Shown here in pieces: positions 16,116 to 56,827 of a stretch of 64,000 nucleotides of DNA. Position numbers and translations under genes: made by a program. Numbering within the stretch: the stretch's first letter is position 1; the number at the start of each line of letters is the position of its first letter. The notes under the pieces were generated by a model. The model was not told the origin of the DNA and did not search any database. It worked only from the letters and a program-made list of their open reading frames with translations. Source of the stretch: Paludibacter sp. (GTDB lineage Bacteria > Bacteroidota > Bacteroidia > Bacteroidales > Paludibacteraceae); contig JAQTUE010000002.1 of the NCBI GenBank assembly GCA_028710415.1, forward strand, positions 279,409 to 343,408. Direction: 5' to 3'.

Positions 16116-16230
16116 ACTCCTTTTGACCTACCTGGTTGTACTCCTTTTTTAAGTAAAAATACTCCTTTTGTCAACGAAATCTAACACTTTCGACTGTGAT
16201 AGCATTCTAATTCTTCCATTATATTTGTAG
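16116..16230 (+). promoter_or_regulatory. Four-box operator array A with -7 element
   Basis: Boxes ACTCCTTTTG (16116), ACTCCTTTTT (16140), ACTCCTTTTG (16161) and ACACTTTCG (16184) are spaced 21-24 bp. TATATTTGTAG at 16220 fits the Bacteroidota -7 element. This is the clearest of nine similar arrays and sets the box definition. No ORF follows it before the hairpin at 16537. Confidence 0.75.
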
Positions 16231-16231
16231 A

Positions 16232-16565
16232 CTAAAAAACAGATTGAATTAAATAAGACCGGAAACAGAATTGAAGGTTATTTTGTTGAATGGTCATAAG
16301 CAATTCAAATCTAATGGGTTAATACCTGATATGTCTTAATTTCATTCAACGGGCTTTAAAAACTTAGCAGGGATGCTCATTTTTTAAGGAGATGAAATAA
16401 GCTTTTTACCTTTTAATAAATTTAACGATTAATTTTAAGAAGATTAAATAAACCTTTATGTTTAAATTTATCTTTTGTTTACAGATCTGATAACCTATTA
16501 AAAGGAGAGGTTTAAGGTCTTTTTAAAATTATCACTGTGAGCCAGTCCTGAGGGATTGGCTCACT
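16232..16565 (+). ncRNA. Candidate small RNA of about 330 nt
   Basis: The segment lies between array A and a hairpin with a 12-bp stem (16537-16564). Its ATG codons are all followed within a few codons by stops, so it does not look coding. The arrangement of regulated promoter, non-coding stretch and terminator-like hairpin is what a small RNA gene would show. The 5' end is inferred from the -7 element. An alternative is an unusually long leader for the regulator at 16927. Confidence 0.4.
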
Positions 16566-16570
16566 TATTT
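16537..16570 (+). terminator. Probable intrinsic terminator
   Basis: GTGAGCCAGTCC (16537-16548) pairs with GGATTGGCTCAC (16553-16564) with one G-U pair and a TGAG loop, followed by a short T-rich tail (TTATTTCT). The tail is weaker than in the best terminators. Confidence 0.65.
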
Positions 16571-16591
16571 CTAAAATGACCCCATTCAAGT

Positions 16592-16707
16592 AATCCTTTT
16601 GACGGATGACCCTCTACACCTTTCATTCCCCTAAAATACACCTTTTACGATAAGAATTTACATCTTTTAGTACCTGTTACTCTGATGCCATTCGGGTATA
16701 TTTGTAA
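16592..16707 (+). promoter_or_regulatory. Four-box operator array B with -7 element
   Basis: Boxes AATCCTTTTG (16592), ACACCTTTCA (16616), ACACCTTTTA (16638) and ACATCTTTTA (16660), then TATATTTGTAA at 16697. The distances from box to -7 element match array A to within one base. It precedes a hairpin and then the regulator at 16927. Confidence 0.75.
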
Positions 16708-16747
16708 TAACTTATTCAACATAAGCCTTGAATTTGAATTTGAGTTT

Positions 16748-16788
16748 GAATCAGCCTGAGGCTCATGCAGCCTTGATTCTGGTTTTTT
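16748..16788 (+). terminator. Hairpin with T6 tail in the leader of the 16927 gene
   Basis: GAATCA (16748-16753) and AGGCT (16759-16763) pair with AGCCT (16769-16773) and TGATTC (16774-16779) around a five-base loop, with a five-base bulge, followed by TGGTTTTTT. GGCT (16760-16763) can instead pair with the upstream AGCC (16753-16756), which would undo the terminator stem. This could be an attenuator, or it may end a short RNA started at array B. Confidence 0.5.
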
Positions 16789-16926
16789 ATGCCGAGCATT
16801 GTCAAACTTAATCCAGAGAACTCAGTTGATCGAATAACCGTTGGCAAAATATGGCACGATTTGAGTTCTAGATTGAACTTTAAATATTAATGTAAATTTG
16901 AATATAAGTCTTATACATCACAGATT

Positions 16927-17442
16927 ATGAAAAAGCCTAAAATTATTATTGTGGATGATAACCAGACCTTCCGCCAAAGCCTGATATTATTGATCACCAT
17001 TGAAAATATTGCGCAAGTAATCGGTAAGGCATCCAATGGAAAGGAATTTGTGGAGCTGCTTGCAGATTGCAAACCGGAAATGGTTTTAATGGATATCGAC
17101 ATGCCTGAAATGAATGGTATAGAAGCTACCCAAAAGGCATTGGAAATCATGCCGGAACTGAAGATAATCGTTTTCTCAATGTATGGTAATGAAGAATACT
17201 ATACTAAGATGAAACAACTTGGAGTGAAGGGATATATTTTGAAATCATGTGACATTGACGAATTTGAAAGAGCAATCAAAATTGTGATGAAAGGAGGAAA
17301 TTATTTTTTTGCTGACCTGGAGATGAAAAACATCAAATACAAGCAACTCAAAGTGGTTGATAAAATCCTTTCAGAAAATTCTGACCTGACGGTAACTGAA
17401 ATTAAATTAATCCAAAATATCTATTCAGGTTCTTCAAACTAG
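16927..17442 (+). CDS. NarL-type response regulator with truncated DNA-binding domain
   Basis: A 171-residue paralogue of the 15302 regulator. The receiver is intact: Asp10-Asp11, phosphoacceptor Asp56 in LMDIDMPEMNG, Ser in VFSMYGNEEYY, and Lys in ILKSCD. After a linker, the protein begins the HTH (LTVTEIKLIQNIYSG) and stops, so the DNA-recognition helices are missing. No in-frame continuation is visible after the stop. It probably works as a phosphate sink, heterodimer partner or protein-interaction regulator, unless it is decaying. Array B and a terminator-like hairpin lie in its leader. Confidence 0.88.
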   Translation: MKKPKIIIVDDNQTFRQSLILLITIENIAQVIGKASNGKEFVELLADCKPEMVLMDIDMPEMNGIEATQKALEIMPELKIIVFSMYGNEEYYTKMKQLGVKGYILKSCDIDEFERAIKIVMKGGNYFFADLEMKNIKYKQLKVVDKILSENSDLTVTEIKLIQNIYSGSSN

Positions 17443-17802
17443 CGAGAGAAGTACCTGAAAGGGCATAATGTCTTGTTTTTTTAAGATTAACAGGCAGCAT
17501 TCCCTTGATCGAGCGATTAATAGAGGATTCTATTTCTCTTTAAGATTTAATACGGTTTCAACTCCAATAAGTTGGTGTTGAGCAGCAAAGATAAATCAAA
17601 CCCAATCTGTTGGAATTGAAATCCGCTTTTAGATCTGCATAATTCCGTCAACCCGGAATGTCCCGACAGCATTCAATTTTCTTGAATTTTAAATGTCATA
17701 TTTAAATCTTTTAAGTATAAGGCGTTGGGTTGAATAAACGCTGGATTTGTATTTTTTTATTACAATATTTTCGTGGTAAAATCAGGAATTGCTCGGTTTG
17801 GT
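17443..17802. other. Intergenic region with partial dispersed repeat
   Basis: Positions about 17555-17675 (CAACTCCAATAAGTTGG, then ATTCCGTCAACCCGGAATG) match part of the element at 56221-56507 in the same orientation. No gene is seen. Confidence 0.55.
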
Positions 17803-17916
17803 AGTCCTTTATACCGATAAGAAACTCATCCTTTAGTCCTATAAAAATACATCCTTTGGCTAAAAAGTATCCTCATTTAAACCCATTTAAATAGTTCGAT
17901 GAAAGTATATTTTTAC
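17803..17916 (+). promoter_or_regulatory. Four-box operator array C with -7 element
   Basis: Boxes AGTCCTTTAT (17803), CATCCTTTAG (17827), CATCCTTTGG (17850) and the weak TATCCTCATT (17868), then TATATTTTTAC at 17906. The regulator start at 17976 is about 60 bases downstream; a small hairpin (ACCCC with GGGGT, about 17927-17946) lies in this leader. Confidence 0.65.
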
Positions 17917-17975
17917 TGAGTAAACCCCGAAATTGATTTTGGGGTAAAAGTATCTAATTTAAAAATGACAAATAA

Positions 17976-18638
17976 ATGACTCCTAGCCCGTATAAACGCC
18001 CTGATGTTATTTTGGTTGATGATCACCTGATATTTCGTCAAGGTTTAAAATCGATTTTAACCCTGGATAATATTGCCAACATAATTGGAGAAGCCTCGAA
18101 TGGAATTGAGTTATTGGAACTTCTTACCCATTTAAAGCCACATTTGGTGTTGATGGATATTGATATGCCCCATATGAATGGAATGGATGCTACAAAAAGG
18201 ACCCTGGAACTTTACCCTGATATGAAAGTAATAGCATTCACCATGTACAGTGATGAAGAGTATTATTATAGAATGATAGAAGTCGGCGTGAAAGGTTTTG
18301 TCCTTAAAACATGCGGGATCAATGAACTTGAAGAAGCTATTGTTAGTGTTATGCAGGGAGATAATTATTTTTCGAATGAACTATTGCGAAAAATAATCAA
18401 AAATTTCGGGAGATCAAAATATGATCTCACAAATGATCATGAAAAACTGACACGCAGGGAAACGGATATCCTGCAACAAATCTGCCTGGGTTTAACAACA
18501 GACGAAATTGCAAAGAAACTTTTCATAAGTCCAAAGACAGTTAAATCACACAAGTCTAACTTGTTGGAAAAAACGGATTGCAAAAACACTCCATCTCTTA
18601 TTCTTTATGCAATAAAAAATAATATGGTTGAATATTGA
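17976..18638 (+). CDS. NarL/LuxR-family response regulator, complete
   Basis: A 220-residue paralogue, closest by eye to the 15302 protein. Receiver with Asp15-Asp16, phosphoacceptor Asp61 in LMDIDMPHMNG, and Lys in VLKTCG. Complete LuxR-type HTH with LTRRETDILQQICLGLT and SPKTVKSHKSNLLEKT. It is the only regulator in the window with both an intact DNA-binding domain and a four-box array (C) in front of it. It is therefore the best candidate for a protein that binds the arrays, perhaps with autoregulation; that is inference. Confidence 0.93.
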   Translation: MTPSPYKRPDVILVDDHLIFRQGLKSILTLDNIANIIGEASNGIELLELLTHLKPHLVLMDIDMPHMNGMDATKRTLELYPDMKVIAFTMYSDEEYYYRMIEVGVKGFVLKTCGINELEEAIVSVMQGDNYFSNELLRKIIKNFGRSKYDLTNDHEKLTRRETDILQQICLGLTTDEIAKKLFISPKTVKSHKSNLLEKTDCKNTPSLILYAIKNNMVEY

Positions 18639-18760
18639 ATTGTACAATAAGACCTCTGTTATACCAGAATGTTTTGTTGATTGAAGAGTTCCTATGTAAC
18701 AAGATGACGGTGATTAAGTTCGATAATAAATATTTAAAATCGAACAACCCATCAAGAAGT

Positions 18761-18874
18761 AGTCCGTTAGTCGCATAAACAACTCCTTCTTTAGTCGCTT
18801 TAAATTACTTCTATTAACAAGGAAGTATACTCTTTTAATCCCATTTAATTTATTTTAATAATAACTATTTTTAC
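18761..18874 (+). promoter_or_regulatory. Four-box operator array D with -7 element
   Basis: Boxes AGTCCGTTAG (18761), ACTCCTTCTT (18782), ACTTCTATTA (18807, weak) and ACTCTTTTAA (18829), then ACTATTTTTAC at 18864. It precedes the regulator at 18933 with a leader of about 55 bases carrying AAGGAG. Confidence 0.6.
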
Positions 18875-18932
18875 AGAAAAATAATCAGAAGAATTTTTCG
18901 CAAAGAACCGTATCTTAAAAAGGAGCAACTAA

Positions 18933-19475
18933 ATGAATCCCCCTTTTACTAAAAAACCGGATATAATTATTGTTGATGATCACCTGATCTTTCGTCAGGG
19001 ATTGAAAGCAATTATAAACTTCGAGGAGGTAGGAACAGTAATTGGGGAGGCCTCAAATGGGGAAGAACTTATGCAATTCCTGTCTGCCATGAAGCCTGAT
19101 TTAGTACTAATGGATATTGATATGCCACAGATGGATGGTTTTGAGGCGACCAAAAAAGCGTTGGAGTTATTCCCTGATTTAAAAATCATTGCATTTACTG
19201 TTTTTTCGGAAGAGGCGTATTCGTATAAAATGATAGAACTTGGTGCAAAGGGATTCTTATTGAAATCCGGTGGGATCAATGAACTTGAAAATGCAATCGA
19301 ACTGGTTATGCAAGGAGAATTGTATTTTTCAACACAACCGGAATTAAAAGTCAATGCGGATTTAGATAAAGATCAAAAGGGTGTTTCTGGAAATGAGATA
19401 GATAAAGCTAAATCAACCAGAAAAATGCTCTTTTACCCCTGGATGACAAACAAGGAAAACCGTGTTAAAATCTAA
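18933..19475 (+). CDS. Receiver-only NarL-type paralogue with LFYPWM tail
   Basis: A 180-residue protein. The receiver matches the other paralogues closely: Asp15-Asp16, phosphoacceptor Asp61 in LMDIDMPQMDG, and Lys in LLKSGG. The HTH is absent; the C-terminus is a charged linker followed by RKMLFYPWMTNKENRVKI. The receiver-only paralogue at 41021 also ends in a related LFPPWF. The reading frame is intact, so loss of the DNA-binding domain looks settled rather than recent. AAGGAG seven bases before the ATG is an unusually good ribosome binding site for this window. It ends 8 bp before the next regulator. Confidence 0.88.
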   Translation: MNPPFTKKPDIIIVDDHLIFRQGLKAIINFEEVGTVIGEASNGEELMQFLSAMKPDLVLMDIDMPQMDGFEATKKALELFPDLKIIAFTVFSEEAYSYKMIELGAKGFLLKSGGINELENAIELVMQGELYFSTQPELKVNADLDKDQKGVSGNEIDKAKSTRKMLFYPWMTNKENRVKI

Positions 19476-19483
19476 AGCCCCAA

Positions 19484-19996
19484 ATGAAAAGGCCAAAGCT
19501 AATAGTAGTTGAAAACAATGTGACTTTCAGGAAGCGATTAATTTTCCTGATTAATGTCGAGAAAAGCATTGAAATAATTGGGGAGGCATCAACCGGAGTT
19601 GAGTTTTTAAAACTTCTTGAGAATGACCATCCTGATTTGATTTTAATTGATCTGGATATACCACATTTAAATGGAATAGGAATTGTCCGAAAGGCATTGA
19701 AAAAACTCCCTTGTTTAAAGATTTTTGCTTTTACCTTATTTGAGGATGATGAATTGATAATTAAACTGATAAAAGCAGGAGTTAAAGGATTTATTTTCAA
19801 ATCGAGTGCTATTTATGAATTGGACAAAGACATCCATTCATTTATGACGGTTGAAGACTATTGTCTAAATAATCAGGTGATAAATATCCTAAAGAGTGTT
19901 GCAATTAATAAATTACATATTTGCCGGGAACATATCTGGGTGTCAAAGAACAAAAGAAAAAATTATACAAGAATCGATTATCCTGTCAATGAGTAG
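19484..19996 (+). CDS. Receiver-like protein with altered acidic pocket
   Basis: A 170-residue member of the same paralogue set, 8 bp after the previous gene and surely co-transcribed. Asp56 in LIDLDIPHLNG and Lys in FIFKSS remain, but the usual VDDH acidic pair has become VENN (Glu10-Asn11-Asn12), so Mg2+ binding and phosphorylation are likely weakened. No HTH; the C-terminal 50 residues are basic and unrecognised (KNKRKNYTRIDYP). It may be a phosphorylation-independent or decoy receiver. It is followed about 100 bp later by the metal island. Confidence 0.8.
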   Translation: MKRPKLIVVENNVTFRKRLIFLINVEKSIEIIGEASTGVEFLKLLENDHPDLILIDLDIPHLNGIGIVRKALKKLPCLKIFAFTLFEDDELIIKLIKAGVKGFIFKSSAIYELDKDIHSFMTVEDYCLNNQVINILKSVAINKLHICREHIWVSKNKRKNYTRIDYPVNE

Positions 19997-20092
19997 TACT
20001 TGAAATTGAAGTTTCAACCGATTTATTAAGATATTGAACTGAATCCCTAAAACAATATTATTTTAAGAACTAACATATTAAATTCAAGAAGC

Positions 20093-20368
20093 ATGAAACG
20101 TTTTATTTTTATCCTGGCAATTTGTATTGCAGTACCTTCGGTAGTTTCTTTTGGCTTAACTCCATCGCCGAAGCATTCAGACTCGATTCGAAAAGTTACG
20201 ACTGTTCAGCGTGAAAAGGTTGTGAAAAAGAATCTTATTGCAAAAGTTGTTTATACCTGTCCCATGCATCCGGAAGTATTGCTGGACAAACCGGGGAAAT
20301 GTCCCAAATGCGGAATGAATCTGGTGAAAAAGACACCGGCAGTAAAAATGGAGCCTAAAAAGAAATAG
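20093..20368 (+). CDS. Secreted heavy-metal-binding-domain peptide
   Basis: A 91-residue protein with a signal peptide (MKRFIFILAICIAVPSVVSFG) and one heavy-metal-binding domain of the YHS-like type: YTCPMHPEV (Cys56, Met58, His59) and CPKCGMNL (Cys70, Cys73, Met75). Such domains bind Cu/Ag or Zn and are often fused to CusB, CusA or P-type ATPases. Here the domain stands alone in the periplasm at the head of the pump genes and could act as a metal chaperone or buffer. The same motif reappears fused in the adaptor at 23688. Confidence 0.9.
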   Translation: MKRFIFILAICIAVPSVVSFGLTPSPKHSDSIRKVTTVQREKVVKKNLIAKVVYTCPMHPEVLLDKPGKCPKCGMNLVKKTPAVKMEPKKK

Positions 20369-20479
20369 ACTTTGAACTGTAACTAAAAATATGTTTCATC
20401 GTGGTACACCTGATTCTTTCCAGCTATGAATTTATAGAAAACATGCAGATTGCATCAGGTGCTTAATTAATAATCCACT

Positions 20480-21754
20480 ATGGTTGAAAAATTAATTTCC
20501 TTCTCATTACGGAATAAATATGTAGTTTTAATTATAGCCGGAATATTATTTGTCTGGGGAGTCTATTCTGTAGGTAATAACCCGATTGATGCCATTCCGG
20601 ATGTTTCAGAGAATCAGGTTATTGTTTTTACCGAGTGGGCAGGACGAAGCCCTCAGGTAATCGAAGACCAGGTTACTTTTCCACTTGTATCCAACCTGCA
20701 GGGTATCCCAATGGTGAAGAATATCCGTGGTACTTCTATGTTCGGGATGAGTTTTGTATACATTATTTTCGAGGATGAGGCAGATGTCTATTGGGCCAGG
20801 ACACGGGTGCTCGAAAGGTTAAGTTCAGCCCAACAGTTAATGCCAACAGGAGTGACCCCAACGCTGGGGCCAGACGGGACCGGGGTTGGACATATTTATT
20901 GGTATACCTTAAATGCCAAAGGATATGATTTGGGAGAATTAAGGGCCCTTCAGGACTGGTATGTGAAATTTGCCCTGCAATCTGTACCGGGAGTCAGTGA
21001 AGTGGCTTCATTCGGAGGGTTTCAAAAACAATATCAGATTGTGATTGACCCTCATAAGCTCACGTATTACAATATCTCCCTTCCCCAGGTGCTGAAAGCA
21101 ACTAAAGAGAATAACAACGATGTCAGCGGGCGCAAGATCGAAATGTCCGGAATGAGTTATATTGTCAGGGGGCTTGGGTATATCCAAAAGAAGGAAGATA
21201 TAGAACGAATTGCGGTAGGCGTATCTAACAGCATTCCAATTACTATCCGTGATGTAGGCACCGTACAGCAAGGCGGGGATTTACGCCTTGGTATATTTGA
21301 TGAAAATGGAGAAGGCGAGGCGGTAGGCGGAATCATAGTCATGCGTTATAATGAAAATGCCGACAAAGTAATTGCTGCTGTAAAAGAGAAGATGAAGGAA
21401 GTCTCAAAAGGTTTGCCGGCAGGAGTTACGTTTAAAACCTCGTACGATAGAAGTACTTTAATTGAGGAAGCAGTGAAGTCTGTGAAGGGCACCTTACTTG
21501 AAGTGATGATAGCCGTATCGTTGGTAGTCTTCTTTTTTCTGCTGCACTGGCGCAGTGCCATCATCATCTTAATACAAATGCCTATCTCCATCGCAGTAGC
21601 ATTTATCTTATTGAATGCATTTAATATATCATCAAACATTATGTCACTCACAGGAATCATCCTGGCAATCGGAGTTATTGTTGATGACAGTATTGTCATG
21701 GTTGAAAATTCATACCGCCGGCTGGCAAATGCATCGAGTGAAAGAAAAGAATAA
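20480..21754 (+). CDS. cusA: CusA/CzcA-type RND pump, N-terminal part
   Basis: The first 424 residues of a heavy-metal RND exporter. TM1 at about 12-30, then the first periplasmic porter segment with FTEWAGRSPQVIEDQVTFP, then TM2-TM4 ending with IVDDSIVMVENSYRRLA, whose Asp402/Asp403 pair matches the proton-relay region of TM4. The frame stops 14 residues later in the cytoplasmic loop before TM5. The rest of the pump is encoded from 21784 in another frame. No single-base change rejoins the two, because stops close both frames between 21752 and 21771. Either at least two mutations occurred or the pump is made as two chains. Copper/silver is favoured by the neighbours. Confidence 0.9.
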   Translation: MVEKLISFSLRNKYVVLIIAGILFVWGVYSVGNNPIDAIPDVSENQVIVFTEWAGRSPQVIEDQVTFPLVSNLQGIPMVKNIRGTSMFGMSFVYIIFEDEADVYWARTRVLERLSSAQQLMPTGVTPTLGPDGTGVGHIYWYTLNAKGYDLGELRALQDWYVKFALQSVPGVSEVASFGGFQKQYQIVIDPHKLTYYNISLPQVLKATKENNNDVSGRKIEMSGMSYIVRGLGYIQKKEDIERIAVGVSNSIPITIRDVGTVQQGGDLRLGIFDENGEGEAVGGIIVMRYNENADKVIAAVKEKMKEVSKGLPAGVTFKTSYDRSTLIEEAVKSVKGTLLEVMIAVSLVVFFFLLHWRSAIIILIQMPISIAVAFILLNAFNISSNIMSLTGIILAIGVIVDDSIVMVENSYRRLANASSERKE

Positions 21755-21783
21755 CAACACCCATGAGGTGAAAATTATATGTA

Positions 21784-23676
21784 ATGAAGAAAGAAGAACG
21801 GGAATCGATTATAGAAAAGGCTTCAAAGCAGGTTGGACCAGGTGTGTTTTACTCCACTATTGTGGTAATAGCTTCCTTTCTTCCTGTTTTTATGCTGACA
21901 GGAATGGAAGGAAAGATGTTTCATCCGTTAGCCTATACAAAAACGTTTATATTAATCATTGATGCATTTCTGGCTATAACCCTTACGCCGGTACTGATTT
22001 CCTTTTTCCTGAAAGGGAAGCTTAAACAGGAAACTGCCAATCCGGTAACCCGGTTCATGGAACGGATTTATACCCCGGTGTTAAAGTTCTGCCTGAAATG
22101 GCGTAAGACCACTATTGGGATTAATATCGTAGCTTTAATAATCAGTATTCCTATGTTTTTAAGCCTGGGTACCGAGTTTATCCCACCGTTAGATGAAGGC
22201 TCGTTGTTGTTTATGCCTGTCACTTTACCGGATGTTTCAAACAGTGAAATTAAAAGAATTCTACAGGTTCAGGATAAAATTATCAAATCAGTACCCGAGG
22301 TTGAAAATGTACTTGGAAAAGCAGGCAGGGCAAATACTGCAACTGATAATTCCCCTATTAGTATGATTGAAACTATTATATTGTTGAAACCTCATAAGGA
22401 TTGGAGGCCAGGGATGACAAAGGAAGGTATTTTGCAGGAATTGAATGCAAAATTACAAATACCGGGTGTTGTAAATGGTTGGACACAACCAATCATTAAC
22501 CGGATTAATATGCTTTCAACAGGAGTCCGGACTGATGTCGGATTAAAGGTATATGGGCAGAACCTGGATTCAATCTATGCCTTGTCCAATAAATTAAAAA
22601 GGCATCTCATGAATGTGCGTGGTGTAACCGACCTGTATGTTGATCCAATTACAGGAGGCAAATTCATTGATATTTCAATACGACGCGATGAAATAGGCAG
22701 ATACGGGCTGAGTGTTGATGATGTCAATGCAGTTATTGAATCTGCTTTAGGGGGAGTAAACGTTACAACTACCATTGAAGGGCGGAGAAGATTTAATGTC
22801 AATGTCCGGTTGGCACAGGATTACCGGAGGAACCTGGAAGATGTAAAACGGATACTCATCCAGAGTCCAGCTTCAGGTGCCATTCCACTTTCATCTGTTG
22901 CGGATATTGTGGTCAATGATGGACCTCCCATGGTGAATTCAGAAAATGCCATGTTACGTGGAGCAGTCCTGTTTAATGTACGGGATCGTGATTTGGGGAG
23001 TACGGTTCAGGAATGTAAGGAGAAACTCAATGAAATGGTAAAATCATTACCCAAAGGGTATTACCTGGAGTGGAGCGGCCAATATGAAAATCAGTTACGG
23101 GCAACCCAGAAACTCAGGATCATTATACCTATCGTGTTATTGATTATCCTGTTGGTTGTTTATTTCACGTTTCGATCGTTTAAGGAAGCATTCTTAACCC
23201 TGATTACAGTGCCTTTTGCATTGATTGGGGGAGTTTATATCATCTATTTTTATGGAATAAATCTCTCAGTAGCCGTTGCGGTTGGTTTTATAGCCCTTTT
23301 CGGGATGGCTATAGAAACCTCGATGTTAATGACCATATACCTGAATGAAGCCATGGAGGATATGGTCGCTAAAAAAGGGAATTCTGCAAAAACAATCAGT
23401 ACAGGTGATATTCATGAATTTGTTATTAAGGGAGCCGTTAAACGCTTAAGACCTAAATTAATGACGGTTAGTGTTTCGTTATTTGGATTGTTTCCGGTGT
23501 TATGGCAGACCGGAGTAGGAAGTGATATCATGCTTCCGATCACACTGCCGTTAATCGGTGGGCTCTTTACGTCAACGATCTATGTACTTCTTTTGACTCC
23601 GGTAATATTTGAAATGACCAAAGTGCAAGAGTTACGGAAATACGGGGAAATCAGACTGATACAATCGGAAAAATAA
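21784..23676 (+). CDS. cusA: CusA/CzcA-type RND pump, C-terminal part
   Basis: The remaining 630 residues: the loop segment REREI-like region then QVGPGVFYSTIVV (TM5), FLPVFMLTGMEGKMFHP, TM6, TM7, the second porter domain with RINMLSTGVRTDVGLKVYG (a motif of the CusA branch), and TM8-TM12 including GFIALFGMAIETSMLMTIYL. An ATG at 21784, 29 bp after the stop of the first part, can start translation. Together the two parts have the usual length of about 1050 residues and nothing between TM4 and TM5 seems lost except linker. It would act in the inner membrane with the adaptors at 23688 and 25047; no CusC/TolC outer-membrane gene is in the window. Confidence 0.9.
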   Translation: MKKEERESIIEKASKQVGPGVFYSTIVVIASFLPVFMLTGMEGKMFHPLAYTKTFILIIDAFLAITLTPVLISFFLKGKLKQETANPVTRFMERIYTPVLKFCLKWRKTTIGINIVALIISIPMFLSLGTEFIPPLDEGSLLFMPVTLPDVSNSEIKRILQVQDKIIKSVPEVENVLGKAGRANTATDNSPISMIETIILLKPHKDWRPGMTKEGILQELNAKLQIPGVVNGWTQPIINRINMLSTGVRTDVGLKVYGQNLDSIYALSNKLKRHLMNVRGVTDLYVDPITGGKFIDISIRRDEIGRYGLSVDDVNAVIESALGGVNVTTTIEGRRRFNVNVRLAQDYRRNLEDVKRILIQSPASGAIPLSSVADIVVNDGPPMVNSENAMLRGAVLFNVRDRDLGSTVQECKEKLNEMVKSLPKGYYLEWSGQYENQLRATQKLRIIIPIVLLIILLVVYFTFRSFKEAFLTLITVPFALIGGVYIIYFYGINLSVAVAVGFIALFGMAIETSMLMTIYLNEAMEDMVAKKGNSAKTISTGDIHEFVIKGAVKRLRPKLMTVSVSLFGLFPVLWQTGVGSDIMLPITLPLIGGLFTSTIYVLLLTPVIFEMTKVQELRKYGEIRLIQSEK

Positions 23677-23687
23677 AATGGATTTGT

Positions 23688-24977: not shown

Positions 24978-25046
24978 TTCATACAGTATGACATTATACC
25001 TGAATAAAATGAAACTCTTTATTTCAATTAGAAAACGAAAACTATC

Positions 25047-26147: not shown

Positions 26148-26218
26148 AAATTATAGAACGAAGGAATTCTCTATGATTTGTAATACATAAATGAAAACTA
26201 AATTAAAAATTAAAGATT

Positions 26219-26905
26219 ATGAAAATGACATCAATTAAATCAACGGCGTTAATTTGTTTTATACTCCTGTCAGTAGGCAGTTTCACTCTTCAGGCTCAGG
26301 GGTTGAAAGATAAGAACGGGAATTTATACCGCACCATTAAATATGGTTTGCAGGAATGGACGGCAAGTAATATCAGTACAACTATTTTTAATAATGGCGA
26401 TGTTATTCCTGAAGCCAAAACGAAAGAAGAATGGATCAAGGCAGGAACTTCAGGGAAACCAGCCTGGTGTTATTACAAAAACGATCCTGAGAATGGAAAG
26501 AAATACGGAAAATTATACAACTGGTACGCAATCAATGACCCCAGGGGATTAGCTCCTGCAGGATGGAAGATTTCTACCAACAACGAATGGATGACGTTGA
26601 TTCAAAACATGCAGGGAGTAGATTATGCAGGTCCAAAACTAAAGAATACGAAAGGTTGGAAATCAAGAAATGGAGTCAATAAGATCGGTTTCTCTGCACT
26701 TCCGGCAGGTATTCGTGATGAAAATGGTGACTTTAGTTTTCTTGGTACGGTTGGCCAATGGTGGTCGAATACCGAACCTGTGGAAGTGAAGAAAAGCAAT
26801 ATGATATTTTCAGTAAAACTCAATGATAATACTGTTGAAATAAGCTATGTAAAAGTAAAGAAGGATACCGGGTTATCGGTAAGATTGGTAAGAGCGATTA
26901 AATAA
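26219..26905 (+). CDS. Secreted FISUMP-domain protein
   Basis: A 228-residue protein with a signal peptide (cleavage near residue 27, after TLQAQ) and a domain of the Fibrobacter succinogenes major paralogous type: KDKNGNLYRTIKYGLQEW, ASNISTTIFNNGDVIP, AWCYYKND, KLYNWYAIND and APAGWKISTNNEWMTL. These proteins are secreted or surface-exposed in Bacteroidota and related groups; the exact function is unknown. It is the last gene before a GTAG-repeat tract. A link with metal handling is only by position. Confidence 0.85.
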   Translation: MKMTSIKSTALICFILLSVGSFTLQAQGLKDKNGNLYRTIKYGLQEWTASNISTTIFNNGDVIPEAKTKEEWIKAGTSGKPAWCYYKNDPENGKKYGKLYNWYAINDPRGLAPAGWKISTNNEWMTLIQNMQGVDYAGPKLKNTKGWKSRNGVNKIGFSALPAGIRDENGDFSFLGTVGQWWSNTEPVEVKKSNMIFSVKLNDNTVEISYVKVKKDTGLSVRLVRAIK

Positions 26906-26908
26906 TTT

Positions 26909-26969
26909 AGTAGGTAGAAAGTAGAAAGTAGTAGGTAGAAAGTAGTAGGTAGTTTTTAGTAAGTAGTCA
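26909..26969. repeat. GTAGGTAGAAA repeat tract
   Basis: Imperfect tandem copies of GTAGGTAGAAAGTAG after the FISUMP gene, the same family as the tracts at 14007-14060 and 15029-15052. It ends with TTAGTAAGTAGTCAG, close to TTAGTAAGCAGTCAA at about 14050. Confidence 0.85.
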
Positions 26970-27015
26970 GATTTTAAGGATTTGATTACATTGTAACATA
27001 AATACAAGAAGTAAA

Positions 27016-30584: not shown

Positions 30585-31198
30585 TTGCTATCACACCTCG
30601 TTTTTATTCTTCTCCACTATTCTTTCCCCTGTTGTTTTCAGTTTTTTATTCCGGACAAAATAATGCTTAAGATATGAATTCGCACTCCTTTTGAATTTCA
30701 TTCAGATAGCATTCGTTTTAGGTTTGTCCATGCTTTGTTTATCGTTCGTCCATCGTTTAATTATGTATTCGAAGGATAATCATTGCAGTTACAACATATC
30801 TACATAGATATGTTGTATATGCAACGCATATATATCCGAATCGTGGACGAACCATGGACGGACGTAGGGCAAATACCCTTTTAGTGGAATACATTTATTC
30901 AATTAATCCAGAAAATGAGATAACTAAGTTGAGTGAGTTAACTAAGTTGTTTAATAGACTCGAATGATTGAAAACAGGTGTCAAAGAATTGACTTTAATG
31001 CCAAGATTAATTCCGGTTATTCACAGCGTGTCAATTGAATTATGCATTGATAGTATCTGTCCGGTATCTGGCTCATGTTATATTTAACATGCAATCGATC
31101 ATTTATATTGTAAAGATTCAATATAAATATATAAAAAAAGATAAGTGATGCTTTTGGATAATATAAGTGCCACTTATATAGAACTATATGATGAAAAT
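30585..31198. other. Intergenic region with large palindrome
   Basis: About 600 bp without a recognisable gene. It holds the imperfect palindrome at 30723-30864; array F follows. A/T-rich elsewhere. Confidence 0.6.
30723..30864. repeat. Palindromic element of about 140 bp
   Basis: Centre: ACAACATATCT (30791-30801), ACAT, AGATATGTTGT (30806-30816), perfect 11-bp arms. The symmetry continues imperfectly outward: ATTGCAGT against ATGCAAC, TTCGAAGGAT against ATCCGAA, and GTTCGTCCATCG against CGTGGACGAAC, with GTCCAT also repeated directly on both sides. It resembles a small non-autonomous palindromic element (MITE- or REP-like). No transposase is nearby. Confidence 0.7.
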
Positions 31199-31312
31199 AC
31201 TACTTTTGGCTGATGTTTTCTACTCCTTTATGCTTACCTGAAATTACGACCTTAATCCAAGAAATTCAGACTTTTACGTGATAATATAATTGTATAGGGT
31301 TTGTAATTTTAC
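31199..31312 (+). promoter_or_regulatory. Four-box operator array F with -7 element
   Basis: Boxes ACTACTTTTGG (31199), ACTCCTTTATG (31222), ACGACCTTAA (31246) and AGACTTTTACG (31267), then TAATTTTAC at 31304. It precedes the secreted protein at 31513 with a leader of about 200 bases, which contains a short hairpin (GCCATC with GATGGC, near 31339). Confidence 0.65.
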
Positions 31313-31512
31313 CCAAAATAAAATAAGTTGGATAACGCCATCCCGATGGCAGTTTAAGTGGTATTTTAATTTCTTTGAATGATATTATACAATTAAAAAG
31401 GGTATCATTTTATTTAACGAGTGAAAATTTTTGAAATACAGGTTGAAGCTTATTCTCAAGATTTTATTTTACAAACTAATTATCAACTATCAACAATCAA
31501 CAATTATCCATT

Positions 31513-33708: not shown

Positions 33709-34138
33709 GCCGGATTTCCCTTCCCCTCCAGCACCCGGAGTGGGAAGGAAAACCCTTTTACCATTCAGAAATCAATGTCGTAGAATTTAGAGAACCAGAA
33801 ATAGTCCGTGGATAATGTACTCCAGGACCGCTGATTAAAAAGGTTATGAAAACATAGAATTATTTTACCTGCGTTCAAATTTTTTCTTAAAAGACATGAA
33901 ATTCAACATCACAAATTGGTATGGGTCTTTAGTTTGCCTTCCCGGATCAATAAGCTAATTGGCCTGGAATATCGACTCTTTATCAGGATGAATACCGTCC
34001 AGAAAAGCACATACAGTTCCTAAATAGAGTAAAAAAACACTAAATGGCATCCCGAAATTTCCATGTTCAGTAAATAAGTAGCGTTTAGACGGTCTGTTGC
34101 TATTAAATGTATAGATATCAATATGTTACTATTAAAAT
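33709..34138. other. Intergenic region with terminator
   Basis: A hairpin at 33719-33748 follows the gene; the rest is A/T-rich DNA without a recognised feature up to array G. Confidence 0.55.
33719..33760 (+). terminator. Terminator-like hairpin
   Basis: CCTTCCC-CTCC (33719-33729) pairs with GGAG-T-GGGAAGG (33737-33748) around AGCACCC, followed by AAAACCCTTTTA. Located 10 bp after the stop codon; T tail modest. Confidence 0.65.
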
Positions 34139-34252
34139 GATACTTTTGACGTATAAATAACTACAACTTTATAACTATAAAAATCAAGACCTTAGTCAAC
34201 TAAATTTAGTCTTTTATGCTAATTTTATTCAGGTCCGGTTTGGTACTTTTAC
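34139..34252 (+). promoter_or_regulatory. Four-box operator array G with -7 element
   Basis: Boxes GATACTTTTG (34139), ACAACTTTAT (34163), AGACCTTAGT (34187) and AGTCTTTTAT (34208), then TACTTTTAC at 34244. Upstream of the multicopper oxidase gene, leader about 170 bases. Confidence 0.65.
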
Positions 34253-34427
34253 TTCGTTAAATTCTAATAAAAGAATATTTAAATTTAAAAATCTAAATCA
34301 ATTATGTTCAACAATTATCCACATTTATTTGAGATAGACATAGGTCTTTGATCTCAATGTATTTTACTGATATTAGTACAGTACCCCTATTAATTTATTT
34401 TAAAAACGAACAAACAATTATTCATTT

Positions 34428-40097: not shown

Positions 40098-40854
40098 TAA
40101 TTAGTTATTAATATTGAAAGTTTAAGTTTCAACCCATAAGTCCAACTCCGCAAGGAGTTGGCCGGGTAAACTAACTTTGAATTTGATTCGTTGGAACAAC
40201 TTCGATAATTCTAACAGAGTAAAAAGTAGAAGTTGTACTCTTAATGCCGCAATACTTCTTCCTGGTTATCCTGGAAGGAAAACGGAAAATGAACACTGTT
40301 AAAGTCAAACTCTGGAAAAGGGCTGATTTTAATGGTGTTCTTTTATTATCCTAATCGTACTATTCAAAAATTAAGCCCAGTTGACATTCAAACTGCAACA
40401 AAGTAATTGGAACAATTAAATGTCCCATTTTGAATTCAGGAGAATAGAACGCGGATTCACACAGATTTGGCGGATGGTACATTCCGGTTTTACGGAATAA
40501 TAACGGATCTTATTCCACCAAGTTGGAGTTTTAATCCGAAAATAATCTTTGTAATAAATGAATCCGTAAACATCCGCTTGATCAGCGAATTCCGCCAAGT
40601 CGGAATGTTCCATCAGCGTTCTATTCTTATAAAAAACAGGACATTATATCCATTCCAGTACTTATAACATCTTCTAATAGCGGTTATTAAATTCAATAAT
40701 TTCTTTGAGGTTAAACATGTTTCCAAGTTTGATACATCAGGGTTAGAAAAAACCGGAAAATATTCAGGTGAAAGAATACTCTTAGTCATTTGATCTTTTC
40801 GGATTCCTCTTCCACTGAACATTAAAACAATACCATTATTCGAGGGGAAGTACT
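40098..40854. other. Intergenic region with hairpin and dispersed element
   Basis: A perfect 8-bp hairpin, CCAACTCC-GCAA-GGAGTTGG (40142-40161), lies 45 bp after the oxidase gene, without a T tail. Positions 40402-40673 hold a dispersed repeat. Short open frames on both strands lie inside the repeat and were not called. Confidence 0.6.
40402..40673 (+). repeat. Dispersed repeat element, copy 1
   Basis: About 270 bp whose reverse complement appears at 56221-56507. The ends AAGTAATTGGAACAATTAAA and CCAGTACTTA match in the other copy, and the segment TGTCCCATTTTGAATTCAGG is identical. Inside, GGCGGATGGTACATTCCGG (40468 on) and CGGAATGTTCCATCAGCG (40600 on) are inverted relatives. Fragments recur after several regulator genes (14917, 15978, 17654). 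Confidence 0.8.
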
Positions 40855-40968
40855 ACTCTTTTTGGATGAGATCCAATACTTATTTTTACCTAGTCAATAT
40901 ACGTATTTTTCCCTTCTCTTTTCATACTAACTTCCGAGGAAAACAATACATTAATGTTGTATTTTCGC
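40855..40968 (+). promoter_or_regulatory. Four-box operator array E with -7 element
   Basis: Boxes ACTCTTTTTG (40855), ACTTATTTTT (40878), ACGTATTTTT (40901) and ACTAACTTCC (40926, weak), then TATTTTCG at 40960. It precedes the receiver gene at 41021 with a leader of about 50 bases. Among the nine arrays this has the weakest boxes but the spacing fits. Confidence 0.5.
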
Positions 40969-41020
40969 ATACTTTATAAGTAAACTCAGCGAATAAAACC
41001 AATAATAATCTCACTACCTA

Positions 41021-41527
41021 ATGAAAAAACCAGATATTATCATTGTAGATGATCACCAGATTTTTAGAAAAGGAATAAAATCCATCATAACCATTGAAAA
41101 TATTGCAAATGTGATAGGGGAAGCCTCCACGGGTGAGGAGTTCTTAGATCTTCTTATTCACATAAAGCCGGACCTGGTATTACTGGATATTGACATGCCC
41201 CATATGAACGGATTGGAAGCGACTGAAAAAGCCCTTGAATTATATCCCGATTTAAAAATAATGGCTTTTACCATGTTTGGGGATGAAGAGTATTTCATCC
41301 GGATGATAGAACTGGGTGCCATGGGTTATATGCTTAAGTCAAGCGATATGAGTGAACTTGAAAAAGCCATTCATCACATCATGAAGGGGGAGAAGTATTT
41401 TTCCAACCATCAGTTCAAAAGAAACAGCAGCCATCTGGGAAATAAAGAAATAAAGAAAATATATGAGAATCATAGCCATTCTCATAAGAGCAATGGAACC
41501 GGAGATTTATTTCCACCCTGGTTTTAG
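41021..41527 (+). CDS. Receiver-only NarL-type paralogue with LFPPWF tail
   Basis: A 168-residue sixth member of the regulator set, 21 kb from the others. Receiver intact: Asp10-Asp11 (VDDH), phosphoacceptor Asp56 in LLDIDMPHMNG, and Lys in MLKSSD. The HTH is replaced by a His/Ser-rich linker (ENHSHSHKSNG) and the end GDLFPPWF, similar to the LFYPWM tail of the 18933 protein. It is followed after 78 bp by a secreted T9SS protein gene and is probably co-transcribed with it. This is the physical link between the regulator family and the surface proteins. Confidence 0.9.
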   Translation: MKKPDIIIVDDHQIFRKGIKSIITIENIANVIGEASTGEEFLDLLIHIKPDLVLLDIDMPHMNGLEATEKALELYPDLKIMAFTMFGDEEYFIRMIELGAMGYMLKSSDMSELEKAIHHIMKGEKYFSNHQFKRNSSHLGNKEIKKIYENHSHSHKSNGTGDLFPPWF

Positions 41528-41605
41528 GCATTCCCGTATAAACTTTCGAATACACTGGTTTGCATTTCCTTGTTGGTAAGGCAAATGTCCCATAATAGCT
41601 ATAGT

Positions 41606-45346: not shown

Positions 45347-45577
45347 CAAAACCGTATGTCCAAAATGTGAACATCTAATTTTCTAAATATTACTTCAGAA
45401 AATAGAGAAATGAACCCCACATACAATAAATCGGATTCAATGGAGTAATACAATTTAAGATGTAAATAATGTAAATTTTGGATTATTGTCTTTTAAATAA
45501 ATCATAAATCGATTGATCACTTTTGTAATCAATGACAAATTATGATATAACGATTTAATTTGCGGGTTAGTTCCTGT
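45347..45577. other. Intergenic segment ending in a terminator hairpin
   Basis: A/T-rich stretch after the T9SS gene with no feature seen until the hairpin at 45569. Confidence 0.5.
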
Positions 45578-45608
45578 CATCCTTTAGGATGACAGGAACT
45601 AATTTTTA
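45569..45608 (+). terminator. Intrinsic terminator overlapping array H
   Basis: A 14-bp perfect stem, AGTTCCTGTCATCC (45569-45582) and GGATGACAGGAACT (45587-45600), TTTA loop, then AATTTTTAA. The first box of array H, CATCCTTTAGG, lies at its tip. Confidence 0.75.
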
Positions 45609-45690
45609 ATACCTAGCATAATTACGACTTATATTGTGGTAATTACTACTTTTTAATTATAGGTTAAATATATATTAATGGTAAATTTAC
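45578..45690 (+). promoter_or_regulatory. Four-box operator array H with -7 element
   Basis: Boxes CATCCTTTAG (45578), ACTAATTTTT (45598), ACGACTTATA (45624) and ACTACTTTTT (45645), then TAAATTTAC at 45682. It precedes the giant beta-helix gene at 45833 with a leader of about 140 bases. Confidence 0.6.
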
Positions 45691-45832
45691 AGCATTAAAA
45701 TCCCTTGAAAGACTTAAATAATACAGGGTTTAGTAAATAAGAAAATATCCAAAATGAATTTTATTTTTAACATGTTGATTTTCACTAGACATAAAATTTA
45801 CAACATACATTCATACTTTTAATATTTTAATT

Positions 45833-53512: not shown

Positions 53513-53563
53513 TTAAATATCCAGAAATTAAAAATATAATTTACAGTTTAAAAAAATAAAAAC

Positions 53564-55936
53564 ATGAAAAAGAAATTTATTTTTACGCTCTTAGTTTTAA
53601 TGTTTGGGCTTTTCTCACCAAATTTATTTGCAGTCCGTTCTTACAAAATGGAGCTTAAAAACATTGTACAAATAAATGAAAACGAACTGCGTTTTGATGT
53701 CTATTTAACGAACACCTCGTCAACTCCTGCTGCAGACTTTATTGCAATAAGTGGGATTCAACTACAGGTAACATTTAACAATTTAATGTTAAATGGAGGC
53801 AGGTTGAATGGCATTGGTTCACTAAGTTATGTTACTGGTACTTCTGATTTAGATCCTGTTTCAACCAAGATTTTTCCGACTGGAGGAGCTGTTTCAGTAA
53901 ATAATCAAGCTAATCCAGCATTGCAGACTACTATTCAGTTTGTAGCTGGTGGAACGATTCAACCAGGAGAATACATGCCTTATATAGCAGATAATAAACC
54001 AGTTCGAATTGGTACATTCAAAGCCAGGGTGATGTCTACACCGCCAAAACTGACAAATTATGCAAGCGTATTGCCGAATTTACAATTACATGCTTCGGGT
54101 TGTATATTGCTTTGGACTTATGTCGATTTTAACTTATTTGGAGATTTGAAATATACACGTAGTTCAGATCCAGTTGATTATGTAATAACAAACCAGACTC
54201 TTGTTTCTCCTTCACTCTCAGATAGATCTTTAGGTGCAAACAGAGGATTATACAGTTCTGCTTATACAGGTACAGGCAATTATAGTGCTGCAGCTAATTG
54301 GAATACCTCACTTGATCCAACTGATCCAAGTTATCATGTTGTTCCAACCAATACTACGGCTAATATCTCTATCGGTAAATTATCCACAGCTTCAATTCCG
54401 GTAGCAGTATTAGGTGCTTGTTCAGTAGATGCCAGTAAAACTGTAAATGATTTAACAATAAATGCAGGATCTCAACTAACACTAAACGTTGGTAGCACAG
54501 TTACAGCTACAAATGTTGATCTCTTTAGCAATGCTGCAAATGGCACAGGAACCTTTGTTGACATGAATTCATCAGGAGGATTAACCGTTAGTGGGGCATC
54601 AAGTGTACAGCAATACCTTCCAATGGGCAGAAACTGGTATATTTCCAGTCCAGTCGCCTCTGCACCAACGAGTATTGTAACGGGAACAACCAGTAACAAA
54701 CTTTGGAATTATACAGAAGCAAATAACGGAACAACTTTATTATGGAATACGATTTCAGGTACTGGTAATTTTGGAGTCACAACAGGGTATATTGCGTATA
54801 TGGCTGCAAGCGGGAACCTTATATTTAATGGAGCATTAAATACAGGTGCAATAACAACGCCAACCTTAACTCGTACCATAGGGGCACTTTCCAGCGGTTA
54901 TAACCTGGTAGGGAACCCATTTCCATCTTTTCTAAACTGGATATCAGCTGTTGCTTCAACAAATACAGGAACTACCAATATGGAACCAACCATGTGGTAC
55001 CGTACTAAAAATCCAAATTCAACATATGTTTTTGATACCTTTATTGCAAATGGTTCTGGTGGAGGAGTAGGTACTTCCAATTTCAGTGGAGGAACTACCG
55101 CAGTAACTTGTTTCATTCCACCAATGCAGGCATTTTGGGTAAGAATTGTACCAGGTCAATCTACCGGAACACTTGCTTTTGATAACAGCATGCGTTCACA
55201 TCAGGATCAAATTTTGACAACAAACCGGTTAAGATCACCCGGAGTAGTCAATATAAGCCAACCCTTGTTACGTTTACAGGTATCGAACGGAGTAAATAGT
55301 GATGAAGCCATCGTATATTTCAACGCCAATGCGTCAGACGGTTTTGATCGTTTTGATGCTGAAAAAATGTCGAATAATAATGATGAAATTCCTGAGATTT
55401 ATACCCTGGCAGGCGACGAAAAGGTTGTCATCAATGGGTTGAAAAGTGTCTACCCTGAAGAAGAGTTGTTATTGGGCTTTAACACACGAAAAGAAAACAC
55501 ATTCTCAATAAAGTTAACAGAGATAAGCAACTTTGATGAGTATACAAAAATTATATTGAAGGACAAACTGTTGAATACAGAACAAGAACTTTCAAGTGAT
55601 AACAGTTATAGTTTTACTTCGGGAGTAATCGACAATGCTAACCGTTTCAGCCTTGTGTTTAAATCGAATTCGATTACCACCGGATTAAATTATCATAAAG
55701 TTGGAAGTGAATCAATATTCATTTATAAGAACCATAATGGACAGATTACAGTAAGCAGGAATGATGCCATTGGAGAAGGAACAGTTGATGTATGCAATGC
55801 AGCAGGGCAAGTCTTGGTGAACAAATCAACAACAGGATCAGTGACAGTGATTGAAACGAATTTAATGCCCGGAGTTTATTTTGTAAAAGTAACTTTAGCA
55901 GGAAAGAACACAACAAAAAAAGTAATAATCAACTAA
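53564..55936 (+). CDS. T9SS surface protein with cohesin-like N-terminus, 790 aa
   Basis: Signal peptide (to about residue 23), then a beta-sandwich domain of about 190 residues (QINENELRFDVYLTNTS, ISGIQLQVTFN, GTFKARV) that looks cohesin-like by pattern and is related to the N-terminus of the 62971 protein. A G8-like strand segment follows (AANWNTSLDPTDP), then the C-terminal module found also in the multicopper oxidase: NWYISSPVAS, SSGYNLVGNPFPSFLNW, MWYRTKN, IPPMQAFWVR, MRSHQ, and a T9SS type A sorting domain (KNTTKKVIIN). Over the last 430 residues the two proteins are plainly homologous. The cohesin-like call is tentative. Position after the dockerin-ended 45833 gene suggests they pair. 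Confidence 0.85.
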   Translation: MKKKFIFTLLVLMFGLFSPNLFAVRSYKMELKNIVQINENELRFDVYLTNTSSTPAADFIAISGIQLQVTFNNLMLNGGRLNGIGSLSYVTGTSDLDPVSTKIFPTGGAVSVNNQANPALQTTIQFVAGGTIQPGEYMPYIADNKPVRIGTFKARVMSTPPKLTNYASVLPNLQLHASGCILLWTYVDFNLFGDLKYTRSSDPVDYVITNQTLVSPSLSDRSLGANRGLYSSAYTGTGNYSAAANWNTSLDPTDPSYHVVPTNTTANISIGKLSTASIPVAVLGACSVDASKTVNDLTINAGSQLTLNVGSTVTATNVDLFSNAANGTGTFVDMNSSGGLTVSGASSVQQYLPMGRNWYISSPVASAPTSIVTGTTSNKLWNYTEANNGTTLLWNTISGTGNFGVTTGYIAYMAASGNLIFNGALNTGAITTPTLTRTIGALSSGYNLVGNPFPSFLNWISAVASTNTGTTNMEPTMWYRTKNPNSTYVFDTFIANGSGGGVGTSNFSGGTTAVTCFIPPMQAFWVRIVPGQSTGTLAFDNSMRSHQDQILTTNRLRSPGVVNISQPLLRLQVSNGVNSDEAIVYFNANASDGFDRFDAEKMSNNNDEIPEIYTLAGDEKVVINGLKSVYPEEELLLGFNTRKENTFSIKLTEISNFDEYTKIILKDKLLNTEQELSSDNSYSFTSGVIDNANRFSLVFKSNSITTGLNYHKVGSESIFIYKNHNGQITVSRNDAIGEGTVDVCNAAGQVLVNKSTTGSVTVIETNLMPGVYFVKVTLAGKNTTKKVIIN

Positions 55937-55949
55937 CTCATATAATGAT

Positions 55950-56123
55950 ATGAAGATAATACATAAAACAAAGCGGGTATATTCATCTCCTGAAATAGAA
56001 CATGTGAAACTGGACAATGACATTTCATTGATACTGGAATCGGATCCACCAAATGGTCCAAACGAAACAAATAATACTCCTGAGTATTTTAAAAACGATC
56101 CGTTTAAGTCTATTCTGGCATAA
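55950..56123 (+). CDS. Small conserved-type protein, 57 aa
   Basis: A 57-codon ORF 13 bp after the 53564 stop and directly before a strong terminator, so it is the last gene of that operon. It begins MKIIHKTKRVYSSPEIEHV and contains DNDISLILESDPPNGPNE and ends YFKNDPFKSILA. The pattern (P.IE...LD..ISL.L.S.PP..PNE, then NPF-like end) resembles short Bacteroidales proteins I have seen as hypothetical, of unknown function. No signal peptide. It may be a precursor peptide or a small partner of surface-protein export; this is speculation. Confidence 0.75.
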   Translation: MKIIHKTKRVYSSPEIEHVKLDNDISLILESDPPNGPNETNNTPEYFKNDPFKSILA

Positions 56124-56138
56124 AGAAAATAATTTTAA

Positions 56139-56166
56139 AACCACTGAGCAATCGGTGGTTTTTTTT
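56139..56166 (+). terminator. Strong intrinsic terminator
   Basis: AACCACTGA (56139-56147), GCAA loop, TCGGTGGTT (56152-56160), with T8 overlapping the end. It closes the 45833-56123 operon. Confidence 0.88.
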
Positions 56167-56220
56167 AATTATTATAGAAATGCAATCTGAAATCATGCAA
56201 TATGCGAATATAATAATTAA

Positions 56221-56507
56221 GATAAGTACTGGAATGGATATAATGTCCTGTTTCTTATATGAATAGAACACTGATTTTCGCTGATCAAACGAATGTTTAC
56301 TGATTCATTTATTAGAAAGATTATTTTCGGATTAAAACTCCAACAAGTTGGAGTTGAACAATATAGAAAAATCGATTCCAACTTGTTGGAATAAGATCCA
56401 TTATTATTCCGTAAAACCGGAATATGCCATCCGCCAAATCTGCTTGTATCCGCGTTCTATTCTCCTGAATTCAAAATGGGACATTTAATTGTTCCAATTA
56501 CTTAATT
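56221..56507 (-). repeat. Dispersed repeat element, copy 2 (inverted)
   Basis: The reverse complement of the 40402-40673 element, with an internal difference: TCCAACAAGTTGGA and TCCAACTTGTTGGA palindromes near 56350 and 56380. A part of this (from TTAAAACTCCAAC to GGAATATGCC) is also related to 17555-17675. The surrounding 56167-56715 region has no gene that I can see. Confidence 0.78.
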
Positions 56508-56715
56508 GATTTCAAATTATTTATAACTTCAGTCCACCTTCTATAACAATGAAATTATAGAGAAAATAAATAGTCTTTGAAAAATTGAATTATTAGCCTG
56601 GAGACTTTAAAATAGAGATTCCCATCAATTAAAAATTTTTGATATTCTGTTGTTGGGATTTTTTTGATATTGAAGAATCTTATATAAAAATAATAGCAAT
56701 AAAAAGATAATAATC

Positions 56716-56827
56716 ATTCTTTAGGATGATAACTACTACAACTTTAGTAGTAGAAAATTACGACTTTTAATACCATTATTTACTTCATATTGTCTACAAT
56801 AAAAGAAATCAGATTTAATAATTTTAC
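56716..56827 (+). promoter_or_regulatory. Four-box operator array I with -7 element
   Basis: Boxes ATTCTTTAGG (56716), ACAACTTTAG (56738), ACGACTTTTA (56760) and ACTTCATATT (56782, weak), exactly 22 bp apart, then TAATTTTAC at 56819, identical to the -7 element of array F. It precedes the operon starting at 56924. Confidence 0.65.

Follow-up and report, generated by a model that had tools for sequence, protein, structure and literature searches.

The window contains nine phased four-box arrays

The stretch of DNA analysed here (the window; 64,000 nucleotides) corresponds to positions 279409–343408 of contig C81 from a Bacteroidales genome of 6.28 Mb in 104 contigs (G000), for which the listed contamination is 6.3%. 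Genes are named by their start coordinates in the window. The features relevant to this study are as follows.

5913..13937, + strand: histidine kinase with GAF, PocR and multiple PAS domains; HisKA_3 match just under the cut-off; likely partner kinase
15302..15964, + strand: REC-GerE response regulator; candidate box binder; not preceded by an array
16110..16231, + strand: array A; four boxes and a −7 element; heads the non-coding stretch; E 1.5e-16 (as a training member of the profile)
16232..16572, + strand: candidate non-coding RNA; intrinsic terminator at its end; 3′ half conserved in locus L044
16584..16707, + strand: array B; heads REC-only gene 16927
16927..17442, + strand: REC-only paralogue; tail alignable with the first part of GerE, then ends
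17798..17920, + strand: array C; heads REC-GerE regulator 17976
17976..18638, + strand: REC-GerE response regulator; candidate box binder; behind array C
18755..18878, + strand: array D; heads REC-only genes 18933 and 19484
18933..19475, + strand: REC-only paralogue; Pro-Trp near the C-terminus (YPW)
19484..19996, + strand: REC-only paralogue; Glu-Asn in place of the acidic pair
31191..31314, + strand: array E; heads 31513 (731 aa, Ig_3 domain)
34131..34255, + strand: array F; third box weak; heads 34428
40848..40971, + strand: array G; fourth box very weak; heads REC-only gene 41021, and 41570
41021..41527, + strand: REC-only paralogue; C-terminal end FPPWF
45572..45694, + strand: array H; second box weak; heads 45833 (2559 aa), then 53564
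56707..56829, + strand: array I; fourth box weak; heads 56924 (149 aa) and 57424 (1306 aa)

All nine arrays were found where the original prediction had placed them, and each is a real, phased set of four boxes adjoining a −7 element. The predicted distances, counted from the central CC-equivalent of each box to the start of the −7 11-mer, were reproduced for arrays A (101/77/56/33), B (102/78/56/34), C (100/76/53/35), D (100/79/54/32), E (100/77/54/29), F (100/77/53/32), H (99/79/53/32) and I (98/76/54/32). Those of array G (100/76/52/31), the poorest of the nine, were also reproduced, but here another register scores equally well. When each array was held out and scored in turn, the weakest boxes were G4 (0.3 bits), F3 (1.4), H2 (3.3), I4 (3.6) and D1 (4.3). 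The boxes previously singled out as weak were C4, D3, E2–E4 and I4; this was borne out for I4, but most of the rest were stronger than boxes that had not been listed.

The arrays were compared with chance using a held-out score summed over the four boxes and the −7 element. The test was partly non-blind, as the matrix was seeded with the motif of the original prediction and the slots were taken from the arrays; with this score, no other position on either strand of the window equalled any held-out array (150 bp around each array being excluded from the + strand count). Nor did any position in 1 Mb of first-order Markov DNA. With the boxes alone, two reverse-strand positions in the window equalled array F. 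A check that depends less on the seed used the strict two-box pattern AAAGNNGTA N10-16 AAAGNNGTA, which has six matches in the genome, each of them within array A, B, E or I and all in one orientation; its reversed control, taken as a count only, likewise gave six genome matches. As predicted, there is no array before the kinases, 15302 or the metal pump, the best match in the window beyond the nine having an E-value of 0.15 in a profile search.

A separate observation concerns positions 20480–23676 of the window, where the gene for an AcrB-type pump is broken into two neighbouring open reading frames (424 and 630 aa) that match consecutive parts of the profile.

Box sequence and array geometry

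An iteratively optimised matrix gave the box core as TACTCCTTTT(G/A), which is a NarL heptamer followed by a T tract. The heptamer recognised by NarL and NarP is given as TACYYMT in an excerpt of PMC4886647, and the core TACTCCT fits it exactly. One heptamer is conserved per unit, with a C at +13 and an A at +16 weakly conserved. Units 1 and 2 have additional conserved bases 3′ of the box, which are possibly a degenerate second half-site.

The boxes are arranged head to tail in steps of ∼24, 22–23 and 21–22 bp, a spacing that would set all four on one face of the DNA. We determined the geometry from the 23 arrays, out of 39 in total (nine of them from the window), in which all four boxes exceed 4 bits; each of the remaining 16 has at least one weak box. 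Relative to the start of the −7 11-mer, whose position was picked with narrow slots that bias it towards the geometry of the window, the boxes lie at −104.3, −80.7, −58.1 and −36.4 (sd 1.1–1.5). The mean spacings in the 23 arrays are 23.6, 22.5 and 21.7 bp, over a range limited by the search slots, and the last spacing is 21 or 22 bp in every one. Box 4, at −36.4 ± 1.1, therefore abuts the predicted core promoter, in a place where an activator would touch RNA polymerase. The −7 element itself resembles the TAnnTTTG sequence described in a portion of PMC7366714.

Two full-length regulators, a kinase and a group of receiver-only proteins

Regulators 17976 and 15302 both match PF00072 and PF00196 above the cut-offs, which places them in the NarL/FixJ family. 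Of the four array-headed genes originally taken for regulators, 17976 is one, but 16927, 18933 and 41021 encode no DNA-binding domain detectable with Pfam. In these three and in 19484, a receiver was found but no GerE domain. An alignment of 16 proteins, ten of them receiver-only, showed no variation at the acceptor aspartate (D61 in 15302) or at K111.

Inspection by eye placed a Pro-Trp near the C-terminus in 9 of 25 receiver-only proteins, in the forms FPPWF, FPHWF, IPWW, LPWW, FPW and YPW; this feature is possibly a docking motif. Receivers of this kind were seen in 18933 and 41021 of the window and in loci L044, L048, L054, L057, L058, L066, L068 and L203. A truncated receiver-only gene in genome G008 ends in FPHWY.

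The regulators of the window had been described as orphans, and this is probably wrong. The 5913–13937 kinase, with a HisKA_3 score of 23.7 bits against a cut-off of 24 bits, precedes regulator 15302 with one ORF6N gene in between. A kinase with an above-threshold HisKA_3 domain lies directly before the response regulator in L142, L146 and L156, although in L146 the pair is present without an array.

The other class of targets had been predicted to be surface proteins of the type IX secretion system (T9SS). This was upheld for two of eight non-receiver proteins of the window compared with NCBIfam, 34428 (multicopper-oxidase, PKD and T9SS type A sorting domains) and 53564; the other six did not reach the NCBIfam cut-off.

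Arrays elsewhere in the genome and in relatives

We built a sequence-only profile from the nine arrays of the window (R1) and a second from 33 arrays, including the same nine (R2). A search of the whole genome with R1 gave 12 matches at E ≤ 0.01, which were the nine training arrays and three outside the window:

C104:84711: array outside the window; R1 E 1.8e-11
C26:59649: array outside the window; R1 E 1.2e-7
C104:74898: weak array outside the window, in a curli region; R1 E 7.2e-4 (6e-4 with R2)

The R2 search gave 13 matches, adding a weak array at C104:81354 (E 0.004), also in the curli region. Both weak arrays are unsteady: C104:74898 was missed by R1 in the short locus L018 and recovered there by R2, and C104:81354 was missing from a repeat search of locus L080. 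The genome thus has eleven strong arrays, nine of them in the window, and two weak ones. The two additional strong arrays precede a curlin–CsgE–CsgF cluster and a cytochrome-biogenesis gene. The set of nine arrays that had been described, shared by regulator genes and genes for large secreted-looking proteins, is real but incomplete, as arrays also occur outside the window. Locus L081 shows a clear array at 9650–9769, ∼430 bp before a gene for ResB/CcsB-type cytochrome c biogenesis.

Among 40 relatives, R1 matched at E ≤ 0.01 in 10 genomes (G000 included), and at E < 1e-5 in only four of these (G000, G006, G008 and G023). A profile scan across the order found arrays in at least 5 of 393 genomes, again counting G000; this is a lower bound, as nine candidates were scored per genome. 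The genes behind the 39 arrays, classified by eye from lists of open reading frames (as was the property of looking secreted), are receivers or regulators in 20 cases, large or secreted-looking proteins in 11, curli-region genes in four, a non-coding stretch in two, and CheA and a CcsB-type cytochrome-biogenesis protein in one each. Outside the genus, arrays precede REC-only, CheW and MCP-like genes (L156, the CheW and MCP calls being made by eye), CheA (L157) and REC-only and CheA genes (L158).

Arrays recur beside the regulator

A set of 36 loci was fetched by homology to the 17976 protein alone. In 26 of these (L044–L068 and L072) the match was at least 51% identical over at least 130 residues, the match in L068 being itself a receiver-only paralogue. 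R1 found 19 arrays at E ≤ 0.01 in 15 of the 26 loci, and all 19 are on the strand of the regulator. The 11 good-match loci in which R1 found no array include some cut by contig ends. With the same profile and threshold, none of the other 10 loci had an array.

From each regulator, a downstream stretch of at most 2 kb was scored with a matrix made from the nine arrays of the window only. Three of the 26 loci (L065, L066 and L068) have no full-length regulator and were excluded; of the 23 tested, 22 had sufficient downstream DNA to be evaluated. Half of these (11/22) scored 34–54, compared with control maxima of 29.1 in 1100 Markov stretches, 24.1 in reversed sequences and 28.3 in upstream stretches. 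A frequent gene order is a REC-GerE regulator, then an array, then a REC-only paralogue, in many cases with a large protein behind it. Array presence is clustered on a tree of the regulators, in which only 5 of the 28 inner branches have good support: it changes five times, whereas shuffling gave a mean of 9.0 changes and a value as low in 4 of 500 shuffles.

A different transcription factor might bind the boxes, with the REC-GerE regulator a mere neighbour or another target. Several genomes would suit this explanation. G008 has five arrays, yet its best full-length match to the regulator is only 31% identical, and the recognition-helix sequence of 17976 is absent from all four of its regulators that were read. 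Conversely, relatives of the regulator are present in G422 (63% identical), G011 (56%) and G427 (56%) with no array at E ≤ 0.01, and regulator 15302 has no array before it. Our main reading is also weakened by G007, which has weak arrays only, and by G014, which has CsgF and one weak array match with no such regulator at E ≤ 1e-28. Against a different factor, arrays recur beside the regulator in metagenome-assembled genomes (MAGs) assigned to several families, and the box core fits the heptamer of the NarL family. Moreover, an edge of a G008 contig holds half of a receiver-only paralogue of the same family, cut by the contig end, making it plausible that the regulator of G008 is missing through an assembly gap. 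We therefore regard a different factor as unlikely and favour 17976 and 15302 as the proteins that would bind the boxes.

Arrays precede curli genes in two genomes

The curli cluster on C104 of G000 matches PF07012, PF10627 and PF10614 above the cut-offs, with a copy of CsgG read by eye. Locus L080 encodes curlin-repeat proteins, CsgE (8.7e-21) and CsgF (2.9e-44). It has a strong array before 15013 and weak ones before 5108 and 11568, with a curlin gene after each; the curlin match of 5108 is below the cut-off. In genome G419, where CsgG was identified by model (PF03783, 6.5e-63), the elements form a single locus in the order histidine kinase, response regulator, array, REC-only gene, two curlin genes, response regulator, array, two curlin genes, CsgE, CsgF and CsgG, with two small open reading frames between. 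R1 alone detected the two arrays of this locus, at E-values of 6.9e-8 and 4.9e-5.

CsgF was found in 6 of 60 relatives. Only G000 and G419 have curli loci with testable upstream DNA, and both have arrays. The curli stretches of G006, G008, G014 and G422 showed no array, but their contigs end within or near the start of the csg genes. We also searched the CsgF loci of six genomes from other families and found no array; upstream DNA is assembled in four of these, two loci (L215 and L216) ending just past the csg genes, and the best matches had E-values of 0.27 (R2) and 0.099 (R1). Because these loci are without arrays, the curli link is known from this genus alone.

The G419 locus L142 also contains three tandem CsgG-like genes (15590–18871), the first and third identified by model and the middle one by eye. 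A CsgF-like stretch (PF10614) makes up the end of the first gene.

A candidate RNA gene behind array A

The stretch behind array A had been described simply as non-coding. An array does head it, but the description was incomplete, as the stretch is a candidate RNA gene: its ∼340 bases end in a strong terminator, and 16232–16572 is predicted to be transcribed. L044 repeats this order: a separate array precedes the corresponding stretch (9820–10162), which has a terminator of its own. Compared with shuffled sequences, the folds gave z-scores of −4.68 (window) and −3.31 (L044). There was no Rfam match at the gathering score, and no small open reading frame was alike between the two genomes. A DNA search of 60 genomes found no full-length relative, although this search was insensitive and missed a known one in G006. 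We considered a shared RNA structure and discarded it, as the two stretches have little in common beyond the terminator hairpin; no structured-RNA family is claimed.

Comparison with known systems

The layout was originally thought to have no counterpart among described systems. However, at the BvgA-activated promoters of Bordetella, an excerpt of PMC7250471 describes dimers bound every 22 bp on one face of the DNA up to the −35 element, which the most proximal site adjoins, so the four-box layout is not unprecedented. Both systems have a response regulator of the NarL family and multiple sites ∼22 bp apart on one face, the proximal one abutting the core promoter. In both, the other sites are weak; the fha promoter has its high-affinity site furthest upstream (same excerpt). 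They differ in phylum and in the core promoter, which here is of the −7 TAnnTTTG type. The two halves of a BvgA dimer bind head to head, and its strong sites contain an inverted heptad; in the present arrays each unit has one conserved heptamer and at most a degenerate second half, and the steps are 24, 22–23 and 21–22 bp. The arrays described here also head truncated receivers and a non-coding stretch.

With NarL and NarP the system shares a core that fits TACYYMT and a REC-GerE regulator that aligns with NarL; the T tract, the four-fold direct repeat and the fixed offset to the −7 element are additional here. Assignment as NarL itself was rejected, at 125–128 bits against the NCBIfam equivalog cut-off of 250. 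The likeness to Escherichia coli CsgD is that a LuxR/FixJ-type regulator is tied to curli genes. CsgD is not known to have the phospho-acceptor aspartate, which is kept here, and multi-box arrays are a further difference. Identity with CsgD was likewise rejected for 17976 and 15302 (69.4 and 75.6 bits against an equivalog cut-off of 250).

A model for array function

We infer from these data that the regulator binds and activates, and by analogy a cooperative, BvgA-like activation array is the most likely arrangement. The complete reading, that the phased arrays are bound by 17976 and 15302 and activate a regulon in which receiver-only proteins are feedback brakes, we consider probable. In such a system, the PAS/GAF kinase would phosphorylate the NarL-family regulator. 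Regulators 17976 and 15302 would then bind the array, one dimer per box, to activate transcription, with phosphorylated dimers occupying the four weak sites cooperatively in the manner of BvgA. The regulon would consist of 17976, the receiver-only paralogues, the non-coding RNA and large surface proteins, together with the curli genes at other places in the genome. Since the receiver-only proteins keep the phospho-acceptor aspartate and have no helix-turn-helix, they would act as brakes, either as phosphate sinks or as inactive partners. Production of adhesin and curli would thus be a self-limited switch.

Repression is common among regulators that bind over their own gene, and the last box is close to the expected −33 element. 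A protein bound there could instead block the polymerase, with the receiver-only proteins relieving the block. A run of four phased sites directly adjoining the core promoter agrees with activation of the BvgA type, however, and repression seems to us distinctly improbable. Within one cluster, several arrays stand before paralogous receiver genes, as would functionless remnants of regulator promoters that were duplicated together with the paralogues, but we give this hardly any credence because boxes and phase are kept across species while the spacers look diverged, and because arrays also head unrelated genes (curlin, CcsB, CheA and giant proteins).

Activation by 17976 and 15302 can be extended to a more speculative proposal: a master switch for curli and adhesins in one Bacteroidales genus that replaces CsgD, in which a BvgA-like regulator would act cooperatively on four weak boxes and be self-limited by Pro-Trp receivers and the non-coding RNA, brakes that would themselves be driven by arrays. 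We put this forward tentatively, as a real possibility that falls short of an even chance. Curli genes occur in Bacteroidetes, and a 2012 report, in the part covered by our excerpt, found csgD absent from all Bacteroidetes genera but Spirosoma and proposed an alternative regulation (PMC3521004). Among the literature matches listed (titles and abstract openings, with few subscription papers covered), we recognised no described Bacteroidetes curli regulator and no such arrays.

What is new is the proposed Bacteroidales regulon with its array-headed truncated receivers, its array-headed non-coding stretch and its link to curli. In two genomes, curli genes are now tied to a defined operator and to a candidate regulator and kinase. 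The array provides an operator model for a Bacteroidales two-component system with which genomes can be scanned, and the truncated receivers behind arrays point to a feedback design. In other families, the position of arrays before CheA, CheW, MCP and CheY-like genes hints at control of a chemosensory system.
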